DNA of 64,000 nucleotides from Ottowia flava (GTDB lineage Bacteria; Pseudomonadota; Gammaproteobacteria; Burkholderiales; Burkholderiaceae_C): positions 62,001 through 126,000 of the forward strand of contig NZ_VRUA01000003.1 in assembly GCF_008017535.1 (NCBI RefSeq). Reading direction: 5' to 3'. The notes under the pieces are model-generated. The model was not told where the DNA came from and searched no databases. It saw nothing but the letters and a program-made list of their open reading frames with translations. Made by a program: the position numbers and the translations under genes. Positions 44,554 to 64,000 of this stretch are shown here, one piece after another; position 1 is the first letter of the stretch; every line of letters begins with the position of its first letter.

Positions 44554-44554
44554 G

Positions 44555-46003: not shown

Positions 46004-46009
46004 GTGAAT

Positions 46010-46190: not shown

Positions 46191-46193
46191 TAA

Positions 46194-46517: not shown

Positions 46518-47131
46518 TGGCCGATGCGCTGGTCATCGTCGGTGCGTCCTATGCCGGGGTGCAGCTCGCGGCCTCTGCGCGAGAGCTGGGCTTCGAGGCG
46601 CCGATCGTGCTGCTCGGCGACGAGCGCCACGCGCCGTACCAGCGGCCGCCGCTGTCCAAGGGCCTGCTCGCCGGCAAGACCGCCGCCGACCAGCTCGCAC
46701 TGCGCGGCCCGGACTTCTATGCCCAGCAGGCGATCGAGCTGCGCCTGGGCACAAGGGCCACGGGCGTCGATCTCTCGTCGCAGCGTGTGCACCTGGCCGA
46801 CGGCAGCGAACTGGACTACGGCTGGCTCGCCTTCGCCACCGGTGCGCGTTGCCGGCCGCTGGCCGTGCCCGGCGCCGATCTCCAGGGCGTGCACGAGTTG
46901 CGAACGCTGGACGACGCCATCGCCGTGCAGGCTGCGCTGGGCCGCAGCCGGCGGGCCTGCGTGATCGGCGGCGGATTCATCGGGCTGGAAGTTGCGGCGG
47001 CGCTGACGGCGGCGGGCGCGAGCGTCACCGTGGTCGAGGGTCAGCCGCGCCTCCTCGCACGCAGCTTAGAGGCAGCGCCTCAAGCGCAAATCAACGCTGG
47101 GGAGCGGAAGAAGAAACATGGAACTGATTGA
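46517..47131 (+). pseudogene. Ferredoxin reductase, truncated
   Basis: The first 185 or so residues are a good FAD-dependent ferredoxin reductase: FAD-binding VGASYAGVQLA, the [10 protein letters not shown] segment and the NAD-binding [10 protein letters not shown]. At about 47072 homology stops; the frame continues into unrelated sequence and ends at 47131. The NAD domain end and the interface domain are missing, so the product should be inactive. The related intact copy at 53457 may replace it. Confidence 0.85.
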
Positions 47132-47909
47132 CAACATCACCCGTTTGCTGGGTGACGACATCAAAGCGACGCTGAAGCCCAAGTCACGGCTCAAGATCGC
47201 CGCCTCGTGCTTCTCGATGTACGCCTTCGAGGCCTTGAAGGCCGAGCTGGAGAAGATCGACGAACTCAGCTTCATCTTCACCTCGCCCACTTTTACGGTC
47301 AGCGAGGTCACCGACAAGATTCGCAAAGAGCGCAAGGAATTCCACATCCCCAAGCTCGACCGCGAGCGCAGCCTGTACGGCAGCGAATTCGAGATTCAAC
47401 TGCGCAATAAGCTGACCCAACGCGCCATCGCCAAGGAGTGCGCTGACTGGATGCGCCGCAAGGCCCGATTCAAGAGCAACCGCATCAAGGCCCCCATGCA
47501 GCCTTTCGCCGTTGTGCAGGCCAACGGGACAGATACCGCCTACATGCCGCTCCACGGCTTCACGGCAGTGGACTTGGGCTATCAGCAAGGCAACGCGGTG
47601 TCCAACCTCGTCAACAAGATGGACGAGCCCGCCTTTGCCGCCACCTACCTCAGCCTGTTCGACCAGATTTGGAACGACCCCGAGAAGCTAGAGGACGTGA
47701 CTGCGCAGATTTGCGAACACATCGCCTCGGTGTACCAGGAGAACTCGCCCGAGAGCATCTACTTCTTGATGCTCTACAACATCTTCAACGAGTTCCTGGA
47801 CGAGATCGACGAAGACGTACTACCCAACGACTGCACCGGCTACCAAGACACGCTGAGCTGGAACAAGCTCTTCAACTGTAGGCGGCCCCCTTATGGGGAG
47901 GCGACATAA
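47118..47909 (+). pseudogene. N-terminal fragment of a large PLD/helicase protein
   Basis: About 253 residues match the N-terminal region (PLD-like nuclease domain and linker, ending near YQDTLSWNKLFN) of DEAD/DEAH helicases often found on integrative elements. In the full protein a glutamine-rich motif and Walker A (SVGLGKT) follow directly; here the frame leaves homology at about 47876 and stops at 47909. GGAGCGGAAGAAG upstream is its original ribosome site. Confidence 0.7.
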
Positions 47910-47935: not shown

Positions 47936-47995
47936 AGTCTGGGTATCGGCGCGCGGCTCCCGGCGTATTGCTCCGCACTGGGGCGGGTACGGCTA
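47936..47995 (+). pseudogene. Relic of an IclR-family regulator
   Basis: Twenty codons read LGIGARLPAYCSALGRV, the same peptide as in the IclR protein at 50053 but with different codons. It overlaps the 3' end of the nitrilase gene. It shows that another IclR gene once lay here and that the junction was made by recombination. Confidence 0.65.
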
Positions 47996-48973
47996 GTCCG
48001 GTTGGTCCGGCGCCTCTTCGTCCGCAGACTTTCGCAGGGGGGACGCCAACCGTCGCACCGGCGTCTTTGCACGGTCGTCGAACACCACACTGAACGGCTT
48101 TGGCCAGTAGTGCCCCGTCGACTCATGGATGAAGTACTTGGGAATTGCCGCGGCCAGGTCGATGTCCGCGTACACGATGCCTTCCTCGTCCCAGGCCAGC
48201 GGTTCCGTCAACAGTTTTCCGCTACCCGCTTCGATGATCGCCGTCCAGGCGTTCACCGGCTGCTGCTCGCGCGTCAGCCCCAGCCGATCCAGCACGTCCT
48301 GCCCAACCACCAGTTGGCTGCAAAGAACGTAGCTGTTGTGAGCGATGGCGTGATAACGGGAGCAGATCTCGGCGAGCGAGCGGTCCGCCAGCGTGAACCC
48401 CAGCCACGCGGCCACATGGACCTGTTCACCCATGGCGGCCAAGGTGTATGCGGGCAGCGACATCGTATGTTCGCCGCAGATCAGCCCGCCGAGCTTGCCG
48501 ACGGCAGTGTCATACACCTCGTGGGTGCTCCCGTCGCCGTCACCCCAGACCAGTTTTTCGGGCCCGGTCGGTCTGAACTTGCGGTGCTTGCCGAGAAGCT
48601 CCCCGCCGGGACTGAAATACAGCAGCGTGTTGTAGAGCGTCTTGCCTTCACGCTCATTGACACCGATGACCACATAGGCCTCGGCCTCGCGAGCTGCTTG
48701 TCCGAGCATGGCGACCACGGGTCCAGGCACCTCCACCGCGTTGCGGAACAACTCGGCCGAGAAGGCACCGCCCCGGCCCATGGGAAGGTGCCATGCCCAG
48801 TACGGCCCACCGGCAAGGAAGACCTCGGGCAACGCGATCAGCTTCGCGCCCTGCGATGCAGCTTGGCGGATGAGGGCGCAGGCCTTGTCCACGCTGGCGT
48901 CGAGGTCCAGGAACACCGGGGCGGCCTGGACGGCTGCTGCCTTGTACTTGGGGGGAATGTCCAGTTTCAGCAT
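47993..48973 (-). CDS. Nitrilase (carbon-nitrogen hydrolase)
   Basis: A 326-aa branch-1 nitrilase with catalytic Glu50 (LPEVF), Lys132 (HRKFRPT) and Cys166 (LICGEH). Nitrilases convert nitriles to carboxylic acids and ammonia. The residue after the catalytic Cys is Gly; many nitrilases have Trp there (CWE), so the substrate pocket may differ. EQVHVAAW is typical of nitrilases. The last codons overlap an IclR relic, so the C-terminus may have been altered. It lies 11 bases downstream of the binding-protein gene, in one operon. Confidence 0.85.
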   Translation of the reverse strand: MLKLDIPPKYKAAAVQAAPVFLDLDASVDKACALIRQAASQGAKLIALPEVFLAGGPYWAWHLPMGRGGAFSAELFRNAVEVPGPVVAMLGQAAREAEAYVVIGVNEREGKTLYNTLLYFSPGGELLGKHRKFRPTGPEKLVWGDGDGSTHEVYDTAVGKLGGLICGEHTMSLPAYTLAAMGEQVHVAAWLGFTLADRSLAEICSRYHAIAHNSYVLCSQLVVGQDVLDRLGLTREQQPVNAWTAIIEAGSGKLLTEPLAWDEEGIVYADIDLAAAIPKYFIHESTGHYWPKPFSVVFDDRAKTPVRRLASPLRKSADEEAPDQPD

Positions 48974-48984
48974 CTCTTGATTCC

Positions 48985-49953
48985 TTACTTTGCTAGGCCG
49001 AGCTTCTTGCCGATGTCATTCACCACGGCGGTCTCCTCGCGCATCATGGTGATCACACGCGCGGGCGGCTGGTAGTCGTTCAGGATCCCCAGCGGCAGGA
49101 TGCGCGCGTTCACCGCCGGATCCCGGAGTGACCTGGCGAATGCCTCCTCGAGCGTCTTGCGCGTGCTCTCCGGCACGCCCGCCGGCACGACGAAGGCCGT
49201 CCAGACGCCGATCAGGTCCTGTGGGTATCCAAGTTCCTTCAACGTGGGAACCGACTCGTAGCCGGGAAACTTGTCGGACAGCGCGATGGCTTTCGCCGCG
49301 CCTGCCTTCAGCGTGCCGCTGACCGACCCGAGCGAGACGATCACGCCCTCCACATGCCCGCCGCGCATGGCGGTGATGGCGGGCCCCGAGCCCTTGAAGG
49401 GCACCGAGAGGATGCCGGCCTTCGTCAGGCCGTTCAGGATTTCGACGTCGAAGTCGCCGATGGAACCCTGGCCGGCGGTGCCGAGCCGCACCTTGCCCGG
49501 ATTGTTCCTGGCGAATTCGACCAGGCCCTTGAGGTCAGTGAACGGAAGTCCGTTCACGATCACGAGCACACTGGGCGTGCGCTCGGCCAGGCTGACGGGC
49601 TGCAAGTCCTTGAACGGATCGTAGTTCGTGCTGGCTGCCTGCAGCACGGGCCTGAAGGTGAGCGATGCGTTGATGGCCATCAGCACCTTCTGCCCATCCC
49701 TTGGCCCGCGGAGCAATTCGGCCACCGACAGGGCTCCGCCGGCACCGGGCCGGTTGTCGACCAGGACCGGGGTGCGCAGGTGCGTCGCCAGGTTCTCCGC
49801 CAGGATACGGGCGGCGGAGTCGAAGCCGTCACCTGCGGCAACGGGAACGATGATGGTGATCGGGCCGGTTGGAAACTCCGGCGTCCGGGCGGCGGCCGGG
49901 CCGGCGAGCAGCGGAGTGAGGGCAACCATCACGGAGAGCAGAAGATTCTTCAT
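48985..49953 (-). CDS. TctC/Bug-type substrate-binding protein
   Basis: A 322-aa periplasmic binding protein with a signal peptide (1-22, ending AAARTP). IIVPVAAGDGFDSAARI and VDNRPGAGG are the first ligand loops of the Bug family. Such proteins feed tripartite tricarboxylate transporters with organic acids, including aromatic acids. It is co-transcribed with the nitrilase, so it may capture the nitrile or its acid. Confidence 0.9.
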   Translation of the reverse strand: MKNLLLSVMVALTPLLAGPAAARTPEFPTGPITIIVPVAAGDGFDSAARILAENLATHLRTPVLVDNRPGAGGALSVAELLRGPRDGQKVLMAINASLTFRPVLQAASTNYDPFKDLQPVSLAERTPSVLVIVNGLPFTDLKGLVEFARNNPGKVRLGTAGQGSIGDFDVEILNGLTKAGILSVPFKGSGPAITAMRGGHVEGVIVSLGSVSGTLKAGAAKAIALSDKFPGYESVPTLKELGYPQDLIGVWTAFVVPAGVPESTRKTLEEAFARSLRDPAVNARILPLGILNDYQPPARVITMMREETAVVNDIGKKLGLAK

Positions 49954-50052
49954 CGTATTTCCAGGGTGAGAACGCCGGAGTTCACGCGTGCAGCGCGGGA
50001 TGCGGCGAAATTCTGTGGGCGGCGGGTGCGCCGGCAAAGCCAAAATGGCGCT

Positions 50053-50856
50053 ATGCGCCAAATCCCTCCTGCCCCGTTGGCCGCCAGCGTCCATCCGCAC
50101 GACAGGAACATCGTGGTCGCCCTCAAAAAGGGCCTGGAGATCCTCACGTGCTTCGGGCGTGAAGCAAGCAGGCTCACCCCCTCGGAAGTGGCCCGTCGCA
50201 CGGGGAGCACGCCGGCATCGGCACGCCGGGCGCTGCACACCCTGCTCGCATCGGGGTTCCTGGAATCGGACGGGAAGCGCTACTGGATGGCCCCGCGCAC
50301 GCTTCTGATCGCGCATGCCTATTTCACCTCCCGGCCCACGGCGCAGCTTGCCCAGCCTGTCATGGAGGCCCTGGCGGAGCGTACGAAGGAGTCCTCTTCC
50401 CTGGGCAAGCTGCTGGACGACGATGTCATCATCCTCTCGCGCTCGATCACCCGAAGCACCCTCGCGACCGGGCTGGGCATCGGCGCGCGCCTGCCCGCGT
50501 ACTGCTCCGCGCTCGGGCGAGTGCTGCTGGCGGGTATGCCGCGCGACGAAGCAGCACGCAAGCTGCAGAGCATGGAGCGCATCCCGCTGACGGCCCGAAC
50601 GACGTACGACCTGGACGAACTCCTCGTGTTGCTGGAGAAGTGCCGCGAGCAGGGCTGGGCTTCCAGCGACGAAGAGCTGGAGCTGGGCGTGCGTTCCATT
50701 GCCGTGCCCGTCACCGACCGGAGCGGAAAGACCATCGCCGGATTGAGCATTTCCGTTCGAGCGGACCGGATGCGCTTCTCGGAATTCCGGGCCCAGATGC
50801 TGCCGCACCTTCACCGGGCGGGTGCAAGCCTGTCCGCTCGCCTCCCCCCGGAATAG
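50053..50856 (+). CDS. IclR-family regulator
   Basis: A 267-aa IclR protein: winged helix (about 20-85, LTPSEVARRTGSTPASARRAL) and effector domain (100-255) with IGARLPAYCSALGR. Divergent from the nitrilase/binding-protein operon with a 99-base gap, so it probably regulates it. IclR proteins in aromatic pathways are usually activators in the presence of substrate. Confidence 0.9.
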   Translation: MRQIPPAPLAASVHPHDRNIVVALKKGLEILTCFGREASRLTPSEVARRTGSTPASARRALHTLLASGFLESDGKRYWMAPRTLLIAHAYFTSRPTAQLAQPVMEALAERTKESSSLGKLLDDDVIILSRSITRSTLATGLGIGARLPAYCSALGRVLLAGMPRDEAARKLQSMERIPLTARTTYDLDELLVLLEKCREQGWASSDEELELGVRSIAVPVTDRSGKTIAGLSISVRADRMRFSEFRAQMLPHLHRAGASLSARLPPE

Positions 50857-50923: not shown

Positions 50924-51712
50924 TCAGAGCAGCGAGGCGAAGTTGCGCCGTGCGGTTTCCATCTCCGGGAGCAGTTCCTCGACCACCTGCTCGCGCGTCA
51001 TGCGGCTGGTCGCCACCGAGAGGCTCATCGCCGCGATCAGTTCGCCGCGGCCGTTGCGTATGGGCACGGCGATCGAGCGCAGTCCGATTTCCAGCTCCTG
51101 GTCGCTCAGCGCGTAACCGTTGGCGCGCACCAGGGCCACCTGTTTCATGATCTCGCGCACGTCCGTGCAGGTGTGCGGCGTGAAGGCGGGACGCGCCATC
51201 CGGTTCAACATGAACTCGACATCCGCGGGCGGCAGTTCCGACAGCAGCACGCGTCCTGTCGCACTGCAGTAGGCGGGCAGCCGGGCGCCGACGCCCAGGC
51301 CGCTGGACAGGCTGCGCCTGTGGGTGGAGCGGGCCACGAACACCGCATCCTGCGAGTCCAGCACCGCCATGGATGCCGACTCGCGCGTGAGTTCGCTTGT
51401 CATCTCGAGGATGGGCTGGGCGACCTTCGTCAGGGGGTCGGACGCGACGTACGCATGCCCGAGGCGCAGCGAGCGCGGCGCCAGCCTGAAATGCCGGCCG
51501 TCCTGCTGCGCATATCCCAGCTTGCACAGCGTCAACAGGCTGCGCCGCACTGCGGCCTTCGTGTGTCCGGTGATCTCTGCCGCGTGCGTCAGGGTCAGCG
51601 GACCCTTGCTGATGCCGAAGGCCTCAATGATGGCCAGGCCCTTCTCGAGCCCCATCACGTATTCCTTTTCTTCCTTCTTTTCTTCCAGCGTTGCGCCGAG
51701 AACCGCCGCCAT
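50924..51712 (-). CDS. IclR-family regulator (PobR/PcaR-like)
   Basis: A 262-aa IclR protein, HTH about 20-80 (TLTHAAEITGHTKAAVRRSLLTLC) and effector domain to about 250. The ATG at 51712 has GGAG 6 bases upstream; a TTG four codons earlier is not needed. It is divergent from the P450 operon. A 15-bp palindrome of the PobR/PcaU operator type lies just upstream of its own start, so autoregulation and control of the P450 operon are likely. TphR, the known terephthalate activator, is also IclR-type. Confidence 0.9.
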   Translation of the reverse strand: MAAVLGATLEEKKEEKEYVMGLEKGLAIIEAFGISKGPLTLTHAAEITGHTKAAVRRSLLTLCKLGYAQQDGRHFRLAPRSLRLGHAYVASDPLTKVAQPILEMTSELTRESASMAVLDSQDAVFVARSTHRRSLSSGLGVGARLPAYCSATGRVLLSELPPADVEFMLNRMARPAFTPHTCTDVREIMKQVALVRANGYALSDQELEIGLRSIAVPIRNGRGELIAAMSLSVATSRMTREQVVEELLPEMETARRNFASLL

Positions 51713-51726
51713 TTTCCGCTCCAAAG

Positions 51727-51839: not shown

Positions 51840-53066
51840 ATGACCAGCGCTCAGACGCTCGAACGCCGCGAGGTGAATGCCCCCGTCACCGACTTCGATC
51901 CCTACTCGGACGCAGTCCTCGACAACCCCTATCCGCACTACGAGATGCTGCGCGAGCTGGGGCCGGTGTTCTACCTGAGCCGCTACGACGCCTACGGCAT
52001 CGCGCGTCATTCCGAGATCGATGCGGTGCTGCGCGATCCGGTGACGTTCTGCTCGAGCGCAGGCGTCGGCCTGGCCAACTTCCACACCACGGAGCCGTGG
52101 CGCAAGCCGAGCATCATCCTGGAGGTCGATCCTCCCATGCACGCGCGCACCCGCAAGGTCGTGGGCGGCCTGCTGGCGCCGGCCAACATCAACAAGCTGC
52201 GCCCCACCTTCGAGCGCCAGGCCGAACTGCTGGTGGACCAGATCCTGGAGAAGGGGCGCTTCGACGCCGTCGAGGACCTGTGCGAAGCCTATCCTCTCAA
52301 GGTGTTCGCCGACGCGGTCGGCATCCCCACCGAAGGACGCGAGCAGTACCTGCTGCCGTACGGCGACATGGTGTTCAACGCGTTCGGCCCGGTGAACGAG
52401 CGCTTCGAGGCGTGCTTCGCCAGGCTGCAGGGCGGCGCATCGGACTGGATCGCCGAGGTCTGCAAGCGCGAGAACCTCACTCCGGACGGCTTCGGCGCGC
52501 AGCTGTACAAGGCCGCCGACGAAGGCCTGCTGGCGCCGGAAGAAGCACCGATGCTGGTGCGCACCTTGCTCTCCGCCGGCCTCGACACGACGGTGTTCAC
52601 GCTGTGCAACGCCATCCTGTCCTTCTCGCGCCATCCCGATCAATGGGCGCTGGTCCACGCGAACCCCGCCCTGGCGCGGCAGGCGCTCGAGGAAGTGCTG
52701 CGCTACGAAAGTACCTTCCACTCCTTCTACCGCACCACCACCCGGGCCGTCGAAGTGGCCGGCGTGCCCATGGGGAACGAGCAGAAGATCTGCGTCTTCA
52801 TCGGCTCCGCGAACCGCGATCCGCGCCGCTGGGGCGAGACCGCTGACCGGTTCGACGTGAGCCGCCGGGCGGCCGGCAACCTCGCCTTCGGCACCGGCAT
52901 CCATGGCTGCGCCGGCCAGATGATCGCGCGCCTGGAGGGCGAGATCGTCCTGACCGCGCTGGCCAGGCGGGTCAGGCAGATCCACCTCGAGGGCCCGCCG
53001 GTCATCCACTACAACAACTCGGTCCGCGGCTACACCAGCATGCCCGTCAGCGTCACCGCCGCCTGA
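51840..53066 (+). CDS. Cytochrome P450, CYP199-like
   Basis: A 408-aa soluble class I P450. Heme Cys357 lies in FGTGIHGCAGQ; the I-helix AGLDTT (Asp249, Thr250) and the Glu285-Arg288 pair are intact. It resembles CYP199A of Rhodopseudomonas over the whole length. Residues that bind the benzoate carboxylate and ring there appear conserved: WRKPS (Arg88, Ser91), NAF (Phe179, Phe182), Arg241 and Ser245; Ser next to the Arg is Thr242. CYP199A acts on para-substituted benzoates (4-methoxy-, 4-methyl-). It has its own ferredoxin and reductase genes directly downstream. Confidence 0.9.
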   Translation: MTSAQTLERREVNAPVTDFDPYSDAVLDNPYPHYEMLRELGPVFYLSRYDAYGIARHSEIDAVLRDPVTFCSSAGVGLANFHTTEPWRKPSIILEVDPPMHARTRKVVGGLLAPANINKLRPTFERQAELLVDQILEKGRFDAVEDLCEAYPLKVFADAVGIPTEGREQYLLPYGDMVFNAFGPVNERFEACFARLQGGASDWIAEVCKRENLTPDGFGAQLYKAADEGLLAPEEAPMLVRTLLSAGLDTTVFTLCNAILSFSRHPDQWALVHANPALARQALEEVLRYESTFHSFYRTTTRAVEVAGVPMGNEQKICVFIGSANRDPRRWGETADRFDVSRRAAGNLAFGTGIHGCAGQMIARLEGEIVLTALARRVRQIHLEGPPVIHYNNSVRGYTSMPVSVTAA

Positions 53067-53127
53067 GCCGGCGGCAGCGCCAGGCTGTCCGGCCCTTTCC
53101 CCTTCCACCCATCGTCAAGAGGCGTCC

Positions 53128-53451
53128 ATGCCCCAGATCACGTACGTCCAGCCGGACGGCGCCCGCCGCTCCATTGCCGCCGCTCCCGGCGCCACGGTCA
53201 TGCTGACCGCCGTTTCCAACAACATCCCGGGCATCGTCGCCGAGTGCGGCGGCGCCGCGATGTGCGCGACCTGCCACGTGTACCTCGACGAGGCCAGCCA
53301 AGCCGTCGTGGCGCCCGTCAGCGAGGTCGAGAACGAGATGCTGGACAGCGCCGCCAGCGGCCGCCGCGAAAACAGCCGCCTGAGCTGCCAGCTGGTGCTG
53401 GAGCCCGGGGTGGAAGAGATCGTGGTCCACATCCCCTCGCACCAGGTCTGA
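53128..53451 (+). CDS. 2Fe-2S ferredoxin, P450 partner
   Basis: A 107-aa vertebrate-type ferredoxin with ligands Cys40, Cys46, Cys49 and Cys87. Similar to the palustrisredoxin that serves CYP199A2. It lies 61 bases after the P450 gene and 5 bases before the reductase, which makes a complete class I electron chain. It is also alike in length and pattern to the ferredoxin at 46194. Confidence 0.93.
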   Translation: MPQITYVQPDGARRSIAAAPGATVMLTAVSNNIPGIVAECGGAAMCATCHVYLDEASQAVVAPVSEVENEMLDSAASGRRENSRLSCQLVLEPGVEEIVVHIPSHQV

Positions 53452-53456
53452 ACGGC

Positions 53457-54683
53457 ATGGTCCAGGCAGGCGTCATCGTGGTCGGCGGCGGACAGGGCGG
53501 CTTCCAGGTCGCCGCCTCGCTGCGCGAGGAAGGGTACCAGGGCAGCATCACGCTCATTGGCGATGAGCCGGGCCTGCCGTACCAGCGCCCGCCGCTGTCC
53601 AAGGGCTTCCTGGCTGGAAAAGCGCAAGCGCAACAGATCGAACTGCGCCCGCCGGCCTTCTACGCGGAGCAAGGCATTGCCTTGCTGGCGCCGGAGCGCG
53701 TCACCAGCGTCGATCGCGCGGCGCGCCGTGTCGGCCTGGCCTCCGGTGCCTCGCTCGCCTATGAGCACCTGGTGCTGGCCACCGGAGCGCGGGCGCGCAT
53801 TCCCACCGTACCGGGCGCAGATCTTCCCGGCATCCTGCCCCTGCGCAGTCGCGCCGACGCCGAAGCCATGCTGGCCCTGCTGCCGCAGGTGCGTCGCCTG
53901 GTGGTCGTGGGCGGCGGCTTCATCGGGCTGGAAGTGGCCGCCGTGGGCACGGACATGGGCCTGGACGTGCGCGTGATCGAATTCGCTGACCGCGTCCTCA
54001 AGCGCTGCGTATCGGCCGGCGTCTCCGCCTACCTCGCCGACGCCCAGGCCAAGCGCGGGGTGCAATTCAGCTTCGAAACCGGCGTCATCGCGTTCAGCGG
54101 CAGTGAAGGCAGGGTCGCCCGCGTGCAGACCAGCCGCGACGACGACTTCGAGGCCGACCTGGTGGTGGTCGGCGTCGGCGTCGAGCCCAATGTGGAACTG
54201 GCACGCCAGGCCGGCCTGCCGGTCCAGGACGGGATCGTGGTCGACGCGCACCTGCTGACCGCTGACCCCGCCATCTCCGCCATCGGAGACTGTGCCCGCT
54301 ACCCCACTACGTGGCTCGCGGCGCCGGTGCGGCTGGAATCCGTGCAGAACGCGGTCGACCAGGCCCGTTGCGTCGCCGCCCGCCTTGCCGGCCGGGGCAC
54401 GCCCTACTCAAAGGTGCCCTGGTTCTGGAGTGACCAGGGCGACAACCGCCTGCAGATCGCGGGAGTGTCCGAGGCCGGCGACAGCGCGGTGCTGCGGGGT
54501 GACCGCGCCTGCGGCAAGTTCTCCGTCTTCCGTTTCCGCGCCGGGCGGCTCGCCGCCGTGGAATCGATCAACAGCCCCGCGGACCACATGGCCGCTCGCA
54601 AGCTCCTGGCCGCCGGCACCCCTGTCACTCCCGAGCAGGCCGCGGACGCCAGCCTGAAGCTGGCCACCCTGCTCGCCCCCTGA
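53457..54683 (+). CDS. FAD-dependent NAD(P)H-ferredoxin reductase
   Basis: A 408-aa reductase of the putidaredoxin reductase type: FAD site [12 protein letters not shown] (near 8), [15 protein letters not shown] site [12 protein letters not shown] (near 155), and the second FAD site AIGDCARYP (near 280). Start at 53457 follows the ferredoxin stop by 5 bases. It should deliver electrons to the neighbouring ferredoxin, and perhaps to the one at 46194, whose own reductase is broken. Confidence 0.92.
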
Positions 54684-54700
54684 ACCGAACGAGGACTTCC

Positions 54701-55459
54701 ATGATCTCCGAACAGCCCAAGACCATTGTCATCACCGGCGGCGCGAGCGGCATCGGCTATGCCTTCAGCGAGCACCTCGCGCAGCTGGGCCACCGCATCG
54801 TGATCGCCGACCTGCGCGGTGCCGACGAGGCGGCTGGCCGCCTCCGCGAGGCCGGGTACAAGGCCATCGGCACCCAGGCCGACGTGACCAGCGAGCGGGA
54901 CGTCGCCGGGATGGCCGCTGCCGCACACGCCGAATTCGGCGGGATCGACTGCCTCGTCAACAACGCGGGACTGTTCACCACGCTGGCGCTCAAACCCTTC
55001 GACCAGATCAGCAACCAGGAATGGATGCGGGTGATGGAGGTGAACACCCTCGGGCCCTTCAACTGCGCCAAGGCGGTGCTGCCGGCGCTGCGGGCCAGCG
55101 GCCGGGGCCGACTGGTGAACATCGCCTCCACCGTGCCGATCAAGGGGCCGCCCAACATGGCCCACTACGTCGCCAGCAAGGGCGCGGTGATCGCCTTCAC
55201 CCGTTCGCTGGCGCGCGAACTGGCCAAGGACCACATCACGGTGAATGCCATCGCCCCCGGCTTCACGCTGAGCGACGGCGTGCTGCAGTCGGACCTGCAG
55301 AACCGGATCGGGGACAACGCCCGCACCACCGGCCGCTGCATACAGCGCGACCAGATACCGGCGGACCTCGTGGGTGCCCTGGCCTACCTCGTCAGCGACG
55401 GCGCCAGCTTCGTCACCGGCCAGACCCTCGCCGTCGACGGCGGCGGCGTGTTTCTCTGA
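54701..55459 (+). CDS. Short-chain alcohol dehydrogenase (SDR)
   Basis: A 252-aa classical SDR: cofactor loop TGGASGIG (near 13), NNAG (near 86), catalytic Ser in NIASTVP, and YVASK (Tyr152, Lys156 approx.). The Asp after strand 2 (VIADLRG) suggests NAD+ preference. In context it could oxidise the benzyl alcohol made by the P450, as TsaC does in the p-toluate route; a diol dehydrogenase role is the alternative. Confidence 0.88.
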
Positions 55460-55473
55460 TCGCGAGGGTTTCC

Positions 55474-56940
55474 ATGGACGCCCACAGTCCCACCACGCCG
55501 GCCTACGAGCAGCTGGCCCTCTACATCGACGGCGAGTTCATCGAGGCCGCCGGCCGCCGCGGGCAGGACGTCGTCAATCCGGCCACGGGGGTCGCCTTTG
55601 CGCGACTGCCGCATGCCACCACGGAGGACCTGGACCGCGCCCTGGCTGCCGCCAGCAAGGCCTTCCAGGGCTGGCGTTTCAGCTCGCCCCTGGAACGTTC
55701 GAAGATCCTGCGCCGCGTGGCAGAACTGATCCGCGAGCGCGCTCCGGCGATCGCCCGCAACATCACCCTGGACCAGGGCAAGCCGCTGGCGGAGGCGTTG
55801 CAGGAAGTGACCACGTGCGCCGAGCACGCCGAGTGGCACGCCGAGGAATGCCGCCGCATCTACGGCCGCGTGATTCCGCCCCGGGCCGAAGCCGTGCGCC
55901 AGCTCGTGATCCGCGAGCCGGTCGGAGTCTGCGCCGCCTTCACGCCGTGGAACTTCCCGTTCAACCAGGCGCTGCGCAAGGCGGTGGCGGCTCTCGGCGC
56001 GGGATGCACGCTGGTCCTGAAGGGTCCGGAGGATTCGCCCAGCGCGGTGGTGGCGCTGGCCCGCATCTTCCACGACGCCGGCCTGCCCGCCGGCTGCTTC
56101 AACGTGGTCTGGGGCGTCCCGGCGGAAATCTCGCGCCACCTGATCGCCTCGCCCATCGTGCGCAAGATCTCCTTCACCGGCTCCACGGCGGTCGGCAAGA
56201 GCCTGGCCGCGCTGGCCGGCGCCCAGATGAAGCGCATGACCCTGGAGCTGGGCGGCCACTCGCCGGTGCTGGTCTTCGAGGACGCCGAGGTCGAAGCTGC
56301 TGCGCGCTTCCTGGCCCGGACCAAGACCCGCAACGCCGGCCAGGTGTGCATGGCGCCCAGCCGGTTCTTCGTGCACGAGAAGGCCTACGACCGTTTCATC
56401 GATGCCTTCGCCGGCATCTATGCCGGACTAACGGTGGGCGACGGACTGGCGCAGGACACGCAGATGGGCCCGCTGGCGCACCTGCGCCGCGTGGACGCGA
56501 TGGAATCGCTGGTGGCCGATGCGCGCGCGCGCGGCGCCGCGGTCCTGTGCGGCGGCGAACGGCTGGCGAGCGGGGGCTATTTCTTCCCGCCGACCATCGT
56601 CACCGGGATGCCCGACGACGCCCGCCTGATGACGGAAGAGCCCTTCGGCCCCGTGGTGCCGGTCACCCGGTTCAGGAGCACGGAGGAAGCGCTGGCCCGG
56701 GCCAATGCGCTGCCCTATGGCCTGGCTTCCTACGTGTTCACGAACTCGCTGGCCACGGCCCATCACGTGAGCAATCGGCTCGAGGCCGGCATGGTCAGCA
56801 TCAATCACTTCGGCCTGGCGCTGGCTGAAACACCGCTGGGCGGCGTGAAGGAAAGCGGCATGGGCAGCGAAGGCGGCACCGAGACCTTCGACGGCTACCT
56901 CGCCACCAAGTTCGTTTCGCAATCCACGCTCGTTCCCTGA
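55474..56940 (+). CDS. Aldehyde dehydrogenase
   Basis: A 488-aa NAD(P)+-dependent ALDH of the succinate-semialdehyde/benzaldehyde dehydrogenase group. Catalytic Cys lies in [10 protein letters not shown] (near 289), the general base Glu in LELGGHSP (near 255), and the cofactor region is [11 protein letters not shown]. It follows the SDR by 14 bases. The pair fits alcohol to aldehyde to acid; 4-carboxybenzaldehyde to terephthalate is the expected step if the pathway idea is right. Confidence 0.9.
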
Positions 56941-57009
56941 GTCGGCTTTCCCGGGAAGTGCCCCCTTGGCACTGCTTGCTTTTCGCCAATGAAATCAAAG
57001 GAGACATCG

Positions 57010-58179
57010 ATGTCCACACGCTTTTCTTCCACCACCTGGACGCGCGTCGCCGCGGCACTGACGCTGGTCGCCGCGGGCGCGGCTGCTCATGCGGCCGAAC
57101 CCGTCAAGGTCGGCCTGATGCTGCCCAGCTCCGGCACGTTTGCCGACCTGGGCAAGTGGACCGTCGATGGCTTCAAGCTGTACGTGCAGCAACAGGGTGG
57201 AAAGCTGGGCGGACGCCCAGTGCAGTACATCACCCTGGATGACGAGTCCGACCCGTCCAAGGCCAACGAGAACGCCAACAAACTCGTCAAGCGCGACAAG
57301 GTCGACGTGCTGGTCGGCACCATCCACTCGGGCGTGGCCCTGACCATGGCCAAGGTGGCACGCGAAACCAGGACCATCCTGATCGTGCCGAACGCCGGCG
57401 CCGGGGAGATCACCGGCGCCATGTGCTCGCCCTACGTGTTCCGCACCTCGTTCAGCAACTGGCAGCCAGGGTACGCCACGGGGCTGCTCGCGGCCAAGAA
57501 GCACAAGACGGCCGTGACCATCAGCTGGAAGTACGCCGCGGGCGACGAGTCGGTCCAGGGCTTCCGCCAGGGCTTCGAGAAGGGCGGCGGCAAGGTGCTC
57601 AAGGACCTGAGCCTGCCCTTCCCCGGCGTGGAGTTCCAGCCGCTGCTGACCGAGCTTGCGACCATCAAGCCGGAAGCCGCCTACGTCTTCGTCGCCGGCG
57701 CCGGCCAGGTCAAATTCGTCAAGGACTACGCTGCTGCCGGCCTGAAGGACCGCATCCCCCTGTACGGCGCCTTCATCACCGAAGGCACTCTGGCTGCGCA
57801 AGGGGACGCCGCACAGGGCCTCGCGACGGCGCTGCACTACGCGGACGGCCTGAAGATCCCCAGGAACGAAGCCTTCATCGCAGCACACGTCAAGGCCTAC
57901 GGCACGACGCCGAACCTGTTCGCGGTGCAGGGCTACGACTCCGCGCAGCTGTACGACGTCGGCCTGAAGGCCGTGAACGGCGACACGAAGAAGAAGGCCG
58001 AATTGATCAAGGCCATGCAGAACGCGAAGCTGGACAGCCCGCGCGGCCCGCTGACCTTCTCCAAGTCGCACAACCCGGTGCAGAACTTCTACGCGCGCGT
58101 GGCCCGCGGCACCGAGAACGTCGTGACGGACGTGGTCGCGCAGAACCTGGCCGATCCCGCCCCGGATTGCAAGCCGTAA
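57010..58179 (+). CDS. Branched-chain-type ABC importer, substrate-binding protein
   Basis: A 389-aa periplasmic protein with a signal peptide (1-29, ending AHAAEP) and a type I binding fold (VGLMLPSSGTFADLGK). AAGGAG lies 6 bases before the ATG. Liv-type binding proteins near aromatic pathways often bind aromatic acids (benzoate-, 4-hydroxybenzoate- or phthalate-type), not amino acids, and that is likely here. Confidence 0.9.
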   Translation: MSTRFSSTTWTRVAAALTLVAAGAAAHAAEPVKVGLMLPSSGTFADLGKWTVDGFKLYVQQQGGKLGGRPVQYITLDDESDPSKANENANKLVKRDKVDVLVGTIHSGVALTMAKVARETRTILIVPNAGAGEITGAMCSPYVFRTSFSNWQPGYATGLLAAKKHKTAVTISWKYAAGDESVQGFRQGFEKGGGKVLKDLSLPFPGVEFQPLLTELATIKPEAAYVFVAGAGQVKFVKDYAAAGLKDRIPLYGAFITEGTLAAQGDAAQGLATALHYADGLKIPRNEAFIAAHVKAYGTTPNLFAVQGYDSAQLYDVGLKAVNGDTKKKAELIKAMQNAKLDSPRGPLTFSKSHNPVQNFYARVARGTENVVTDVVAQNLADPAPDCKP

Positions 58180-58209
58180 GGCCCCGCCCCGGCAACTCCT
58201 GAACGCACG

Positions 58210-59073
58210 ATGGACCCCGCCCTCATCCTGATCCAGACCCTGAATGCCGCGCAGTACGGCCTCCTGCTGTTCCTGGTGGCCAGCGGACTCACCCTGATCT
58301 TCGGGGTGATGGGCGTGATCAACCTGGCGCACGGCAGTTTCTACATGATGGGCGCCTATCTCGCGTTCAGCCTGTCCGCGCTCACCGGGAACCTGCTCCT
58401 CACCATCCTGATCGGCGTCGCCCTGAGCGTCGTGCTCGGGGCGGTGCTGGAGTGGGCGCTGATCTCGCACCTGTACCGCCGCAATCACCTGCAACAGGTG
58501 CTGCTGACGTACGGCCTCATCCTGGTGTTCGACGACCTGCGCAGCATGCTGGTGGGCGACGAGGTGTACTCCGTGCCGGTCCCGGCCTGGCTCGATTTCC
58601 CCGTGCCCCTGGGCGACGTGATGACCTACCCGGCCTATCGCCTGTTCATGTCCGGAGTCTGCCTGCTGATCGCAGTGGGCCTCTACCTGCTGATCCAGCG
58701 CACGCTGGTCGGCGCCCGCATCCGCGCGGGCGCATCCAATCGAGACATGGTGCAGTTGCTGGGCATCAACATCAACTTGCTGTACCGGCTGGTGTTCGCC
58801 GTGGGAGTCGGCTTGGCGTCCTTCGCCGGAATGATCAACGCGCCGGCGTCCACCGTGTCGCCCGGGATGGGATCCCAGGTGCTGATCGTGAGCTTCGTTG
58901 TCGTCATCGTCGGCGGCATCGGTTCGGTCTGGGGTGCGTTGCTCGCGTCACTGCTGATCGCCTTCGCCGACACGTTCGGCAAGGTCTTCATCCCCGATTA
59001 CGCGGGCATCTCCATCTATGTCGTCATGGCCGCCATCCTGCTGTGGCGCCCCGAAGGGCTGTTCAAGGCATGA
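58210..59073 (+). CDS. Branched-chain-type ABC importer, permease 1 (LivH-like)
   Basis: A 287-aa permease with about eight helices; the hallmark VIGGIGSVWGALLAS is near residue 235. It pairs with the LivM-like protein encoded with a 4-base overlap. Confidence 0.93.
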   Translation: MDPALILIQTLNAAQYGLLLFLVASGLTLIFGVMGVINLAHGSFYMMGAYLAFSLSALTGNLLLTILIGVALSVVLGAVLEWALISHLYRRNHLQQVLLTYGLILVFDDLRSMLVGDEVYSVPVPAWLDFPVPLGDVMTYPAYRLFMSGVCLLIAVGLYLLIQRTLVGARIRAGASNRDMVQLLGININLLYRLVFAVGVGLASFAGMINAPASTVSPGMGSQVLIVSFVVVIVGGIGSVWGALLASLLIAFADTFGKVFIPDYAGISIYVVMAAILLWRPEGLFKA

Positions 59074-60050
59074 GATCGCTGATCACCTCCCCCACGCGCG
59101 CCGTCATCGCCACCTTGTTCCTGCTGGTGCTGGCCGCCTTCCCGTTCTTCGAGGAGGAGTTCTACACGGAGATGGTCACGCGCGTGATGATCCTGTCGAT
59201 CTTCGCCGTCAGCCTCGACCTGCTGCTGGGCTATACGGGCTTGATCAGCTTCGGCCATGCCGCCTGGTTCGGCCTCGGCGGCTACGTCCTCGCCCTGCTG
59301 GGAACCAAATACCGCCTGACCGAAAGCCTCTGGCTCACCATGCCGGCCGCCATGGCCGTCACGGCGGCGGCTTCGTTCCTGGTCGGCCTGCTCGTGCTGC
59401 GCACGCGGGGCATGTTCTTCATCATGGTCACGCTGGCCTTCGCCCAGATCTTCTATTTCTTCTTCCATGACGTCGAGGCGCTGGGCGGCAGCTCCGACGG
59501 CCTCCACCTGCGCGGGAAGCCGTCGGCCAGCATCGGCGAGTGGGTGCCGTTCGACCTGAGCGACACCAACACGCTGTACTACTTCGTGCTGGTGGTGCTG
59601 GTGGCGCTGCTGTTGTTCATGGTGTTGCTGCTGCGCTCCCCGCTGGGCCGGGCGCTCCAGGGCATCCGCGAGAACGAGCACCGCATGGAGGCGATCGGCT
59701 TTCCCGTGTTCCGCTACAAGCTGGCTGCCTTCACCATTTCGGGGGCGTTCGCCGGCCTGGCGGGCTATCTGTTCGCCGTGTTGAACGGCAGCGTCAACCC
59801 CGAGATGCTGTCCTGGCACCAGTCCGCCGACGGGCTGCTGATCCTGATCCTGGGCGGGATGGGCCAGTTGTGGGGCGGCGTGATCGGAGCTTTCACCTTC
59901 GTGCTGCTCCAGCAAGTGCTCTCCGGCGTCGCCGACAAGTGGCACCTGTGGATGGGGATCATCATCATCCTGCTGGTGCTGTTCCTGCCCGGGGGAATGA
60001 TCTCGTTGCTGGACCGGCTCAAGGGCCTGTGGCAAGGGAGGGCCGCATGA
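59070..60050 (+). CDS. Branched-chain-type ABC importer, permease 2 (LivM-like)
   Basis: A 326-aa permease. GYTGLISFGHAAWFGLGGY near residue 55 and LGGMGQLWGGVIGAF near 265 are typical of LivM. It overlaps livH-like by 4 bases and livG-like by 4 bases. Confidence 0.93.
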   Translation: MRSLITSPTRAVIATLFLLVLAAFPFFEEEFYTEMVTRVMILSIFAVSLDLLLGYTGLISFGHAAWFGLGGYVLALLGTKYRLTESLWLTMPAAMAVTAAASFLVGLLVLRTRGMFFIMVTLAFAQIFYFFFHDVEALGGSSDGLHLRGKPSASIGEWVPFDLSDTNTLYYFVLVVLVALLLFMVLLLRSPLGRALQGIRENEHRMEAIGFPVFRYKLAAFTISGAFAGLAGYLFAVLNGSVNPEMLSWHQSADGLLILILGGMGQLWGGVIGAFTFVLLQQVLSGVADKWHLWMGIIIILLVLFLPGGMISLLDRLKGLWQGRAA

Positions 60051-60808
60051 GCGAGGTCCTGCTCAAGACCGCGAACCTGCGCCGTACCTTCGGCGGCCTG
60101 GCTGCCAACGACAACATTTCGCTGGAGCTGCGGCGGGGCGAGGTGCACGCCGTGCTGGGACCCAACGGCGCCGGCAAATCGACGCTGATCAACCTGCTGT
60201 CGGGCGACATCGCGGCCACTTCGGGCGAAATCTTCTACCGGGATCGCGACATCACCCGACTGACGCCGCACGAGCGCTCGTTGATCGGCATCGGCCGCAG
60301 CTACCAGAAGACCAACATCTTCCCGGGATTCACGGTGCGGGAAAACTGCCGGCTCGCCGCGCAGTCGCGCGAACCGCGTGGCGCCCGCATCTTCAGCGAC
60401 GCCGCTGCCTGGGGACCGTACCGCACGGTGGTGGATGCGGCCCTGCGCGACGCCGGCCTGGTCGACGTGGCCGAACGTCGCGCCAGCGACCTGAGCCACG
60501 GCCAGCAGCGCCAGCTGGAACTGGCGATCGTGCTGGCCACCCGGCCGGAGGTGTTGCTGCTGGACGAGCCCCTGGCTGGCATGGGACACGAGGAGTCGCT
60601 GCGCATGATCCAGCTGCTGCGCGGCCTGGTGGCCTCGCACGCGATCCTGCTCGTGGAGCACGACATGGAGGCGGTGTTCTCGATCGCCGACGTGCTCACG
60701 GTGATGGTCAACGGCGTGATCCTGATGACGGGTGCACCCGAACAGATCCGCTCCAGCGCCGAAGTGCAGCAGGCCTACCTGGGTTCCGAGGAGGCAGACC
60801 ATGCCTGA
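60047..60808 (+). CDS. Branched-chain-type ABC importer, ATPase 1 (LivG-like)
   Basis: A 253-aa ABC ATPase: Walker A GPNGAGKST, signature LSHGQQRQ, Walker B VLLLDEPLAG and the switch His in VEHDMEAV. Overlaps neighbours on both sides. Confidence 0.93.
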   Translation: MSEVLLKTANLRRTFGGLAANDNISLELRRGEVHAVLGPNGAGKSTLINLLSGDIAATSGEIFYRDRDITRLTPHERSLIGIGRSYQKTNIFPGFTVRENCRLAAQSREPRGARIFSDAAAWGPYRTVVDAALRDAGLVDVAERRASDLSHGQQRQLELAIVLATRPEVLLLDEPLAGMGHEESLRMIQLLRGLVASHAILLVEHDMEAVFSIADVLTVMVNGVILMTGAPEQIRSSAEVQQAYLGSEEADHA

Positions 60809-61514
60809 GATCGCACTGCAGGCGCGAGGCCTGCATTCCTACTACGGCAGCAGCCACATCCTGCACGGCATCGATTTCACGCTGAACCGCGGCGAGGCGG
60901 TGGGCCTGATGGGCCGCAACGGCATGGGAAAGTCGACGTTGCTGAAGTCCCTGATCGGGCTGGTGAGCCCGCGCGAGGGCGCAGTCGAGGTGTTCGGCCG
61001 CCCCGCCCGCGGCATGCGGATCCACGACATCGCGAGAATGGGCGTTGCCTACGTGCCCGAAGGCCGCGGCATCTTCGGCAACCTGAGCGTGCGGGAGAAC
61101 CTGCTGTTGGCGGCGCGGCCCGGTGTCGACGGCCGCCGCGAGTGGCACTACGACCGCGTGCTGCAGACCTTTCCAAGGGTGGGCGAACGCCTGGCGCACG
61201 GCGGCCAGCAACTCTCCGGCGGAGAGCAGCAGATGCTGACGATAGGCCGGGCGTTGATGACCAACCCCCAGGTGCTGATTCTCGACGAGGCCACCGAAGG
61301 CCTGGCGCCGCTGATCGCCCGCGAGATCTGGCATACCATCCGCGTGATCCGCGAATCCGGCATCGCCACCATCCTGGTCGACAAGAACTGGAAGGCCGTC
61401 ACCGACCTCACCGACCGCAACGTGATCCTGGTGAAGGGGCGCGTGGCCTTCGAGGGGACGGGGGAGGCGCTGCGCGCCCAGCCGGAACTGTTGGCCGAAT
61501 ACCTGGGGGTGTGA
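60801..61514 (+). CDS. Branched-chain-type ABC importer, ATPase 2 (LivF-like)
   Basis: A 237-aa ABC ATPase: Walker A GRNGMGKST, signature LSGGEQQM, Walker B LILDEATEG. Most LivF proteins have LSGGQQQ and DEPS; here DEAT replaces DEPS, a small departure. The switch position reads DKNWKAV, where LivG has EHDMEAV, so the switch His is replaced; hydrolysis may depend mainly on the LivG site. It overlaps livG-like by 8 bases. Confidence 0.92.
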   Translation: MPEIALQARGLHSYYGSSHILHGIDFTLNRGEAVGLMGRNGMGKSTLLKSLIGLVSPREGAVEVFGRPARGMRIHDIARMGVAYVPEGRGIFGNLSVRENLLLAARPGVDGRREWHYDRVLQTFPRVGERLAHGGQQLSGGEQQMLTIGRALMTNPQVLILDEATEGLAPLIAREIWHTIRVIRESGIATILVDKNWKAVTDLTDRNVILVKGRVAFEGTGEALRAQPELLAEYLGV

Positions 61515-61582
61515 GGCAAGCAGGATTGCTCCAGCGGCGCCGCCCATTCATCCACTCCTCCACTTTGCAGAAAACCCATCGC

Positions 61583-62560
61583 ATGTCCCCACCCATCACG
61601 AGGCGCCTCGCCCTGACCCTGGCTGCTGCCACCTTCGCCGGCGCCGGCACCCTTGCGTGCGCGCAGCAACCGTCCAGCACCGTCAAGCTGATCGTGCCGT
61701 TCCCGGCCGGCGGCACCGCAGACGTGCTGCCGCGCATCTTGGTGGAGAAGGTGCGTTCAGCCTACCCGGCCGGCATTGTGGTGGAGAACAAGTCCGGTGC
61801 CGGCGGCAACATCGGCGCGGAGTCCGTCTCCCGTGCCGATCCCGACGGCACGACCTTCCTGGTCTCGCCTCCCGGCCCCATCGCAATCAACCACCACCTG
61901 TACAAGTCGCTGCCCTTCGACGCCACGAAGTGGGTGCCCGTGACCGTCCTGGCCACCGTACCCAACGTGCTGGCCGTCAGCAACAAGCTGCCAGTGAAGA
62001 ACGTCGAGGAGTTTGTGGCCTACCTGAAGGCCAACCCCCGCAAGGTCAGCTACGCCTCGCAGGGCAACGGCTCCACTTCGCACCTGACGGCCGCCATGTT
62101 CATGCAGCTGACCGGCACCGAGATGATCCACATCCCGTACAAGGGCACGGCGCCGGCCCTGGTCGATATCGTCGGCGCCAACGTGGACGTGTTCTTCGAC
62201 AACATCAGCTCCTCGGCCCAGTTTCACACGGGCGGCAAGCTCAAGATCCTGGCCGTGTCCGACGAGAAGCGCTCGCAGTTGTTGCCGCAGGTGCCCACTT
62301 TCGTGGAATCCGGTATCCCCGGCATGGTCGCCGTGACCTTCTTCAGCATGGTCGCGCCGCCCGGCACGCCGAAGGCGGCCGTCGACTACGCGCACAAGCA
62401 GTTTTCCGCCGAGCTGCTGACGCCGGACGTGCAGCAGAAATTCGCTCTCCAGGGGGCCACGCCGGCCGGCTGGACGCCGGCGCGCAGCGGTGAATTCATT
62501 CGTGCCGAGTCCGCGAAGTGGAGCCGCGTGATCAAGTCAGCAAACGTCACATTGGAGTAA
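61583..62560 (+). CDS. tphC: TctC/Bug-type binding protein, TphC-like
   Basis: A 325-aa periplasmic binding protein, signal peptide 1-27 (ending ACAQQ). LIVPFPAGGTADVL and VVENKSGAGGN are Bug-family ligand loops. In Comamonas E6 the tph cluster begins with tphC, the terephthalate-binding protein that works with a TctAB permease, directly before tphA2. Same order here (3 bases before tphA2), so I use the name, but a different aromatic ligand is possible. Confidence 0.8.
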   Translation: MSPPITRRLALTLAAATFAGAGTLACAQQPSSTVKLIVPFPAGGTADVLPRILVEKVRSAYPAGIVVENKSGAGGNIGAESVSRADPDGTTFLVSPPGPIAINHHLYKSLPFDATKWVPVTVLATVPNVLAVSNKLPVKNVEEFVAYLKANPRKVSYASQGNGSTSHLTAAMFMQLTGTEMIHIPYKGTAPALVDIVGANVDVFFDNISSSAQFHTGGKLKILAVSDEKRSQLLPQVPTFVESGIPGMVAVTFFSMVAPPGTPKAAVDYAHKQFSAELLTPDVQQKFALQGATPAGWTPARSGEFIRAESAKWSRVIKSANVTLE

Positions 62561-62563
62561 GCC

Positions 62564-63793
62564 ATGCAGGAACAGACCATTCACTGGCGCGGCCCGAGCT
62601 TGACCCGGGTGCCCTACGACCTCTACACCGACCCCGCCACCTCGCAGCGGGAGCAGGAACGCATCTATCGCGGCGCGACATGGAACTACCTCTGCCTGGA
62701 GGCCGAACTGCCTGAAGCTGGCAGCTACCGGACCACCCACGTGGGCGACACGCCGGTGGTGGTGGTGAAGGACGCGGACGGCGAGATCTACGCCTTCGAA
62801 AACCGCTGCGCACACCGCGGCGCGCTGATCGCGCTGGAGAAAGCCGGCACGGCGCAGAACTTCCAGTGCGTGTACCACGCCTGGAGTTACAACCTGCAGG
62901 GCAGCCTGACGGGCGTGGCTTTCGAGAAGGGCGTCAAGGGCAAGGGCGGCATGCCCGAAGGTTTCTGCAAGGAAGACCACGGGCCGCGCAAGCTGCGCGT
63001 CGCGGTCTACTGCGGCCTGGTGTTCGGCAGCTTCAGCGAGGACGTCCCGTCCATCGAGGAGTACCTGGGCGACGAGATCTGTGCGCGCATCGAGCGCGTG
63101 CTGCACAAGCCGGTGGAGGTGATAGGCCGCTTCACCCAGGCCCTGCCGAACAACTGGAAGCTGTACTTCGAGAACGTCAAGGACAGCTACCACGCCAGCC
63201 TGCTGCACCTGTTCTTCACCACCTTCGAGCTGAACCGCCTGTCGCAGAAGGGCGGCGTGATCGTCGACGAATCGGGCGGCCACCACGTGAGCTATTCAAT
63301 GATCGACCCGGCGGCGGCCGACTCCTCGTACAAGGAACAGGGTCTGCGCTCGGACCATTCCAGGTACCGGCTCAAGGACACCACGGTGCTACAGGGATTC
63401 CATGAGTGGGACGACGGCATCACGCTGCAGATCCTGTCGGTGTTCCCGGGCTTCGTACTGCAGCAGATCCAGAACTGCCTCGCGGTGCGCCAGGTGCTGC
63501 CCAAGGGCCAGCATCACTCCGAACTGAACTGGACGTACATCGGCTTCACCGACGACACGCCGGAGCAGCGCAGGGTGCGCTTGAAGCAGCTGAACCTGGT
63601 GGGACCCGCCGGTTTCATTTCGATGGAAGACGGCGCCGTGGGGGGCTTCGTGCAGCGCGGCATCGCCGGCGCGCAGGGGCTCGAGGCGGTGGTGGAGATG
63701 GGCGGCGAGACCACCGGCTCCAGCGACGGCCGAGCCACCGAAACCTCGGTGCGCGGCTTCTGGAAAGCCTATCGCCAGCACATGGAAGCCTGA
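62564..63793 (+). CDS. tphA2: Terephthalate 1,2-dioxygenase, large oxygenase subunit
   Basis: A 409-aa Rieske oxygenase alpha subunit. Rieske ligands Cys82/His84 (CAHRGA) and Cys102/His105 (CVYHAW); mononuclear iron His210 and His215 in [10 protein letters not shown]. Over long stretches (for example [39 protein letters not shown]) it matches Comamonas TphA2 as I recall it. It converts terephthalate to the 1,2-cis-diol with TphA3 and reductase TphA1. Anthranilate dioxygenase AndAc is the nearest alternative. tphB and tphA1 are expected beyond the window. Confidence 0.9.
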
Positions 63794-63795
63794 CC

Positions 63796-64000
63796 GTGAT
63801 CGACCTTCTCTCCCTGTGCGCGTTCAACGCGGCCTACGCGCAGGCCATCGACTCAGACAAGCTGGAGGAGTGGCCGGCCTTCTTCACGGAAGACTGCCAC
63901 TACCGCATCACCAATGTCGACAACGAGCGCGAGGGCCTGCCCGCCGGCATCGTCTTCGCCGATTCGCGGGCCATGCTGGAAGACCGCATCGCCGCGCTGC
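63796..64000 (+). CDS. tphA3: Terephthalate 1,2-dioxygenase, small subunit (3' end outside window)
   Basis: The first 68 codons from a GTG, 2 bases after tphA2. AFNAAYAQAIDSD and CHYRITNVDN match the start of TphA3 beta subunits. The window ends inside the gene. Confidence 0.88.
   Translation, partial: MIDLLSLCAFNAAYAQAIDSDKLEEWPAFFTEDCHYRITNVDNEREGLPAGIVFADSRAMLEDRIAAL

Follow-up and report, generated by a model that had tools for sequence, protein, structure and literature searches.

What feeds the terephthalate (tph) genes of Ottowia flava? In the 64,000-nucleotide stretch of its genome analysed here (the window), genes for a cytochrome P450, a ferredoxin, a ferredoxin reductase, a short-chain dehydrogenase (SDR) and an aldehyde dehydrogenase (ALDH) run into a Liv-type transporter and the first tph genes, all on the forward strand between positions 51840 and 64000. 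The operon probably serves the catabolism of a benzoate with a methyl group in the para position; the likeliest is p-toluate (4-methylbenzoate), which would be converted via terephthalate to protocatechuate. This assignment is drawn from gene content, conserved residues and gene neighbourhoods: a core of P450, ferredoxin and SDR beside the tph genes, usually with an ALDH, fits the oxidation of a methyl substituent in the para position to the carboxyl level, which would yield the substrate of terephthalate 1,2-dioxygenase (TPADO).

Linkage of the P450 to terephthalate genes

Loci of related P450s (56 in total) were retrieved from named genomes by searching with six peptide patterns derived from the window P450, a procedure that favours close relatives; protein starts are approximate for a few of the genes read in these loci. 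The 33 fetched P450s whose aligned positions show 57% identity or more to the window P450 are referred to here as the clade. The gene for the TPADO alpha subunit, tphA2, lies in the fetched stretch at 29 of the 33 clade loci and is present in the genome of 31, and it was found at none of the 20 more distant P450 loci in the stretches fetched, some of which are short (e.g. L045). Twelve of these 20 outgroup genomes were searched whole and gave one TphA2 match at E up to 1e-120, with 45% identity (L039). A ferredoxin and an SDR relative (at least 55% identity) are each encoded at 32 of the 33 clade loci, and P450, ferredoxin and SDR are found together at 32. Relatives of the ALDH (at least 60%), the reductase (at least 50%) and the divergent IclR-family regulator described below (at least 55%) are present at 24, 22 and 21 loci, respectively.

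Where tphA2 is separated from the P450, or reduced to a fragment beside it, the genome may still contain it. In Ramlibacter rhizophilus (L009), a complete tphC-A2-A3-B-A1 set (TphA2 86% identical) is located elsewhere, and the genome of Noviherbaspirillum pedocola, whose P450 lies on a 7.9 kb contig (L018), encodes two TphA2s (70%) elsewhere. At L032, the contig end leaves only 87 residues of TphA2, and a full TphA2 (59%) is encoded elsewhere in that genome.

About eight arrangements of the modules are seen across the clade loci. The order of the window (P450-to-ALDH, Liv, tph) is shared by several Ramlibacter and Polaromonas loci, a DctP-type binding protein replaces Liv in the Comamonadaceae metagenome-assembled genomes (MAGs) L012 and L013, and Neopusillimonas has P450-ferredoxin-SDR-ALDH and then tph. 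The tph genes precede the P450 in Noviherbaspirillum malthae and follow it on the opposite strand in N. suwonense. In Hydrogenophaga, the P450 module is placed between tphA1 and tphB (tphA2-A3-A1, P450-to-ALDH, DctP protein, tphB); in Celeribacter and kin, tphA2-A3-B-A1 is followed by P450-ferredoxin-SDR-ALDH-reductase; and in Bradyrhizobium and Afipia, the P450 and tph modules are divergent. That the linkage survives this reshuffling suggests that the modules serve one pathway. In Piscinibacter defluvii (L014:2173-3300), a deletion has fused the P450 frame to the apparent end of livG, with loss of the haem cysteine and of the genes up to livF; the tph genes remain.

The earlier note on this DNA had named, as an observation that would speak against it, orthologous P450 clusters found regularly without tph genes; the counts above run the other way. 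The tie between the P450 module and terephthalate catabolism is thus upheld by the linkage, but it is confined neither to one operon nor to Comamonadaceae. As a separate observation, three alpha-type P450 loci have a gene for an FMN_red-family protein close to tphA2 and the P450 (L034:9016-9612, L032:473-1039 and L028:5382-5942).

A tree was computed from 63 P450 rows, including 35 clade rows (the 33 fetched proteins, the window P450 and L061). L064, from the same contig as L014, was omitted, and L049-L052, L054-L056 and L058-L060, counted among the 20 outgroup loci, were left out. A branch with 100/100 support separates the 35 clade rows and three L036-type rows (38 in all) from the 25 remaining rows, CYP199A4 included. 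The 35 clade rows by themselves require two changes on the best tree, and a single origin is not rejected (approximately unbiased test, p-AU 0.153). At L036 itself (L036:7314-11967), the 56% identical P450 adjoins an SDR, a TctC protein and a UbiD-family decarboxylase; tphA2 is elsewhere in the genome.

Organization of the cluster

Open reading frame analysis and domain profile searches confirmed a 12-kb head-to-tail row on one strand, as had been claimed: P450-ferredoxin-reductase-SDR-ALDH-LivKHMGF-tphC-tphA2-tphA3 occupy forward-strand frames without internal stops and belong to the expected protein families. Intergenic gaps, taken from the frame coordinates, do not exceed 68 bases, and several neighbouring genes overlap. 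Scans for promoters (1 site versus 0.6 expected) and terminators (10 sites versus 5.9 expected, one of them between ALDH and LivK) were uninformative, so that operon continuity rests on spacing and co-orientation. Divergent from the P450, on the reverse strand, is a TphR-like IclR-family regulator of the PcaR/PcaU/PobR group (50924–51724; TIGR02431, 293.9 bits against a cut-off of 284.75), which probably co-switches the P450 and tph genes.

The P450 and its redox partners

The P450 (51840–53066; p450 domain) is proposed to be a 4-methylbenzoate para-methyl hydroxylase. Its closest solved relatives are 2FR7 (CYP199A2) and the CYP199A4 entries (E 6e-128 to 4DNZ), and it is 48% identical to CYP199A4. 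P450s share a family above 40% identity and a subfamily above 55%. Because 48% lies between these two lines, the protein is placed by its sequence in family CYP199 but outside subfamily A; its earlier description as a CYP199-like P450 is therefore correct for the family and does not extend to the subfamily.

CYP199A4 anchors para-substituted benzoates through Arg92, Ser95 and Ser244, and its Arg92 and Ser95 bind the carboxylate (PMC11854964). Alignment with CYP199A4 bore out the proposed equivalence of Arg88 and Ser91 in the window P450 to this Arg/Ser pair, and R241 (the equivalent of Arg243) and C357 are also retained. Ser244 is replaced by Thr242, which keeps the hydroxyl, and Val295 by Phe293. 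The segment P-V-Q-T-F at 294–298 of CYP199A4 reads T-F-H-S-F in all 33 clade P450s, except for L032, where the last residue is Y. The L036-type P450s have T-F-H-S/T-F at the equivalent positions, and Phe at the 295 equivalent by itself is also present in L039 and L055.

The best solved match of the [2Fe-2S] ferredoxin (53128–53451; Fer2) is 4LTU, followed by putidaredoxins, and that of the FAD-containing ferredoxin reductase (53457–54683; Pyr_redox_2 and Reductase_C) is 3FG2, followed by putidaredoxin reductase. 4LTU and 3FG2 are the Rhodopseudomonas palustris ferredoxin and reductase partners of CYP199 enzymes. Electrons from NADH would thus pass through the reductase and the ferredoxin to the P450, which, judging from its family and retained residues, would hold the carboxylate by Arg88 and Ser91 and hydroxylate the para-methyl group to give 4-hydroxymethylbenzoate.

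The SDR, the ALDH and the transporter

The SDR (54701–55459; SDR families) is the candidate 4-hydroxymethylbenzoate dehydrogenase, and the ALDH (55474–56940; ALDH families), whose sequence contains the catalytic motif and LELGGHSP, is the candidate 4-formylbenzoate dehydrogenase. Acting in turn, they would produce 4-formylbenzoate and then terephthalate, with NADH regained. The solved relatives of the SDR are led by 3-oxoacyl-(acyl carrier protein) reductase and (S)-1-phenylethanol dehydrogenase. Of the 14 solved structures matched with an E value of 1e-36 or lower, TsaC (8SY8) is 11th (2e-37 versus 1e-51 for (S)-1-phenylethanol dehydrogenase), and by this rank the SDR is not a TsaC orthologue.

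The transporter consists of a LivK-type periplasmic binding protein (56989–58179; Peripla_BP_6), LivH-type (58210–59073) and LivM-type (59070–60050, start taken from the frame) permeases, both with BPD_transp_2 domains, and LivG-type (60047–60808; ABC_tran and BCA_ABC_TP_C) and LivF-type (60801–61514; ABC_tran) ATPases. Import of the acids may depend on this transporter, on TphC, or on both.

The terephthalate genes

TphC (61583–62560) is a TctC-type terephthalate-binding protein, whose best solved matches are periplasmic terephthalate binding proteins (8HKA, 8HK9 and 8HKB; best E 6e-141). It is followed by TphA2, the TPADO alpha subunit (62564–63793; Rieske and Ring_hydroxyl_A), which aligns over the full length with 7Q04, a terephthalate dioxygenase alpha subunit (E 3e-228), and by the beta subunit TphA3 (63796–64000), which is cut at the window end and whose in-window part matches NF041685 (AndAd) below its cut-off. 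The same contig (C23) was also read from its position 124001 as L003, which overlaps the window and continues past its end. There, tphA3 ends at L003:2260, and similarity matches identify tphB (PdxA family; L003:2215-3204) and tphA1 (L003:3217-4215). The window and its continuation together hold the complete set, with tphC, A2, A3, B and A1 side by side. TphB resembles 8ZJ7 and, less closely, 4ATY (terephthalate dihydrodiol dehydrogenase).

Among five characterised homologues, N224, S243 and R390 are unique to TPADO, and R309 is a general carboxylate anchor (PMC9060491). In the alignment, the window TphA2 retains N224, S243, I290, R309 and R390. The same holds for all 23 of the 29 linked TphA2 rows that span the five positions; two partial rows (L013 and L035) retain those that they span, and four (L008, L010, L011 and L032) span none. 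Anthranilate dioxygenase AndAc was the top NCBIfam model for this protein, yet it reached 456.8 of its 750-bit cut-off, and the terephthalate-specific residues decide for TphA2. There is one such TphA2 in the genome, and the next match is 39% identical.

By close homology, TphA1A2A3 would dioxygenate terephthalate and TphB would rearomatise the product to protocatechuate. Protocatechuate is then predicted, also by homology, to enter a 4,5-cleavage pathway on the same contig, where a fused protocatechuate 4,5-dioxygenase and LigK (the dioxygenase parts and LigK over cut-off) are encoded about 217 kb further along. A profile search of the genome found no PcaH over its cut-off.

Distribution and probable acquisition

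In a sample of 399 genomes of the window's family, drawn without regard to the P450, a P450 match (E up to 1e-90) was found in 13 (16 matches) and TphA2 (E up to 1e-160) in 24. The clade P450 is present in three of them (O. flava itself, G049 and G654, the last being the same assembly as the deletion-bearing L014), each less than 15 kb from TphA2. TphA2 occurs in one of the remaining 10 P450-match genomes (G506), on another contig. A 399-genome sample of the order, likewise drawn without regard to the P450, contains the clade P450 in two genomes (O. flava and G049), both with TphA2. Within the genus (29 genomes), both the clade P450 and TphA2 are restricted to O. flava, and one congener has a 51% identical P450.

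The nearest P450, at 96% identity, is in a MAG named Ramlibacter. A phage-type integrase is located upstream of the region (window 29766–30869) and an IS66 transposase some kilobases downstream of tphA1 (L003:9612-11150). On the basis of its absence from the 28 congeners, the Ramlibacter relative and these two flanking elements, which together suggest acquisition, the cluster was probably acquired by this genome. P450 matches (E up to 1e-40) in 75 plasmid records are all below 60% identity (50.5% for the best among the matches listed), and none of the plasmid records reaches 80% coverage of the 18 kb query.

Substrate of the P450 module

Several observations weigh against the p-toluate pathway. 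The 33 relatives are not independent, since they are concentrated in few genera and were retrieved by patterns of the window P450 itself. No ALDH was found in nine of the 33 fetched loci (L014 carries the deletion, and L032 is a 5 kb contig), and MAG-wide searches found no TphA2 in the Ramlibacter MAGs L005 and L023, whose contigs end inside the cluster. The 38-row clade takes in the three L036-type P450s (56%), which have no adjoining tphA2; two of their three genomes encode TphA2 elsewhere (at 65% and 62% identity). Among solved structures, (S)-1-phenylethanol dehydrogenase is a closer relative of the SDR than TsaC is, which would also fit a secondary alcohol or a longer side chain. Finally, 21 of the 24 TphA2 genomes in the family sample are without the clade P450, which makes the P450 module optional. 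As read from these gene neighbourhoods, it is an optional front end that has been kept joined to tph in several proteobacterial lineages.

The strongest alternative, which we regard as rather unlikely, is that the module feeds terephthalate from another para-substituted benzoate, such as 4-hydroxymethyl- or 4-formylbenzoate, or a longer 4-alkylbenzoate that is cut back to the carboxyl. Solved relatives of the SDR do include a secondary-alcohol dehydrogenase, and an engineered CYP199A4 converts 4-tert-butylbenzoate to a dicarboxylic acid (PMC12933326). However, the SDR and ALDH match exactly what a methyl group needs, and no conserved side-chain-cutting gene was seen with the P450 in the loci read. 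Furthermore, Phe293 in place of Val295 should shrink the pocket if it faces the substrate, as the residue at this position does in CYP199A4.

It is very improbable that the P450 O-demethylates 4-methoxybenzoate like CYP199A4, with its proximity to tph reflecting a mere shared island of aromatic-acid genes. CYP199A4 demethylates veratrate, and 4-methoxybenzoate is termed a viable substrate (PMC10825196), but the product would be 4-hydroxybenzoate rather than terephthalate. 4-Methoxybenzoate was rejected as the substrate because it leaves the conserved SDR and the persistent yet rearranged tph linkage unexplained. Hardly credible, lastly, is a Tsa-type pathway with its Rieske enzyme elsewhere and the P450 serving another purpose, since P450, ferredoxin and SDR stay together at all but one of the 33 loci, even though the SDR and ALDH resemble the TsaC and TsaD steps in kind (PMC10579966).

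Oxidation of p-toluate by the P450 module is thus the preferred reading. Of the route put forward in the earlier note, in which a P450 takes the place of TsaMB on the way to terephthalate, the tph linkage stands, p-toluate as the substrate is inferred, no ALDH gene was found at nine of the 33 fetched loci, and the SDR is not a TsaC orthologue.

Relation to known systems

In the TsaMBCD system of Comamonas testosteroni, a monooxygenase likewise converts the methyl group to an alcohol, and TsaC (an SDR) and TsaD (an ALDH) carry out the steps after TsaM and return NADH (PMC10579966). In contrast, the oxygenase that precedes the SDR and ALDH here is a P450 with a ferredoxin and a reductase instead of the Rieske protein TsaM with TsaB, the SDR is not a TsaC orthologue, and the module is joined to a tph operon. 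CYP199A2 and CYP199A4 of Rhodopseudomonas palustris, with Pux and PuR, share with the present system the P450 family, a class I redox chain and the carboxylate-binding Arg/Ser; the window P450 differs in its 48% identity, Thr for Ser244, Phe for Val295, TFHSF for PVQTF and the joined tph genes. The operon of Comamonas sp. E6 has the order tphR-tphC-A2-A3-B-A1. The structural genes are in the same order here and an IclR regulator is again upstream, but a P450-ferredoxin-reductase-SDR-ALDH-LivKHMGF block lies between the regulator and tphC. The open-licence PMC literature searched yielded no description of a tph-linked P450 route from p-toluate, which does not prove that none is in print; the combination itself recurs beyond one operon and beyond Comamonadaceae.

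Neighbouring genes

Just upstream of the cluster (window 47993–50856) are genes for a nitrilase-type hydrolase, a TctC binding protein and a second IclR regulator. The nitrilase is also present in L005 and L023 (92–95%), and L022 has a 42% relative next to its Liv genes. This enzyme might release p-toluate or terephthalate from a nitrile precursor. Further upstream (window 43231–47909), a Rieske oxygenase (LigXa_C/VanA-type), a glutamine-synthetase-like protein, a ferredoxin and a ferredoxin reductase are encoded. The reductase has 204 residues, with the C-terminal part missing, and is directly followed by an open reading frame without a Pfam match (47118–47909). This region resembles another oxygenase system, one whose reductase is truncated.

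Implications

If the proposed pathway is correct, a P450 route from p-toluate to terephthalate would exist beside the Rieske TsaMB route, as a second natural route into a plastic monomer. Terephthalate would then have a natural intracellular source, and the P450, SDR and ALDH sets could be of use for making or degrading the monomer of polyethylene terephthalate. We propose, more tentatively, that the clade may represent a distinct CYP199 subfamily dedicated to producing terephthalate from natural 4-methylbenzoates, with P450-SDR-tph as a widespread natural route. With several named strains among the carriers (Ramlibacter albus GTP1, R. rhizophilus, Hydrogenophaga palleronii NBRC 102513, Noviherbaspirillum species and Celeribacter baekdonensis B30), the origin of tph genes becomes testable. 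Such a pathway would help to explain tph genes apart from synthetic polyester, with terephthalate as an intracellular intermediate of 4-alkylbenzoate breakdown in these lineages.

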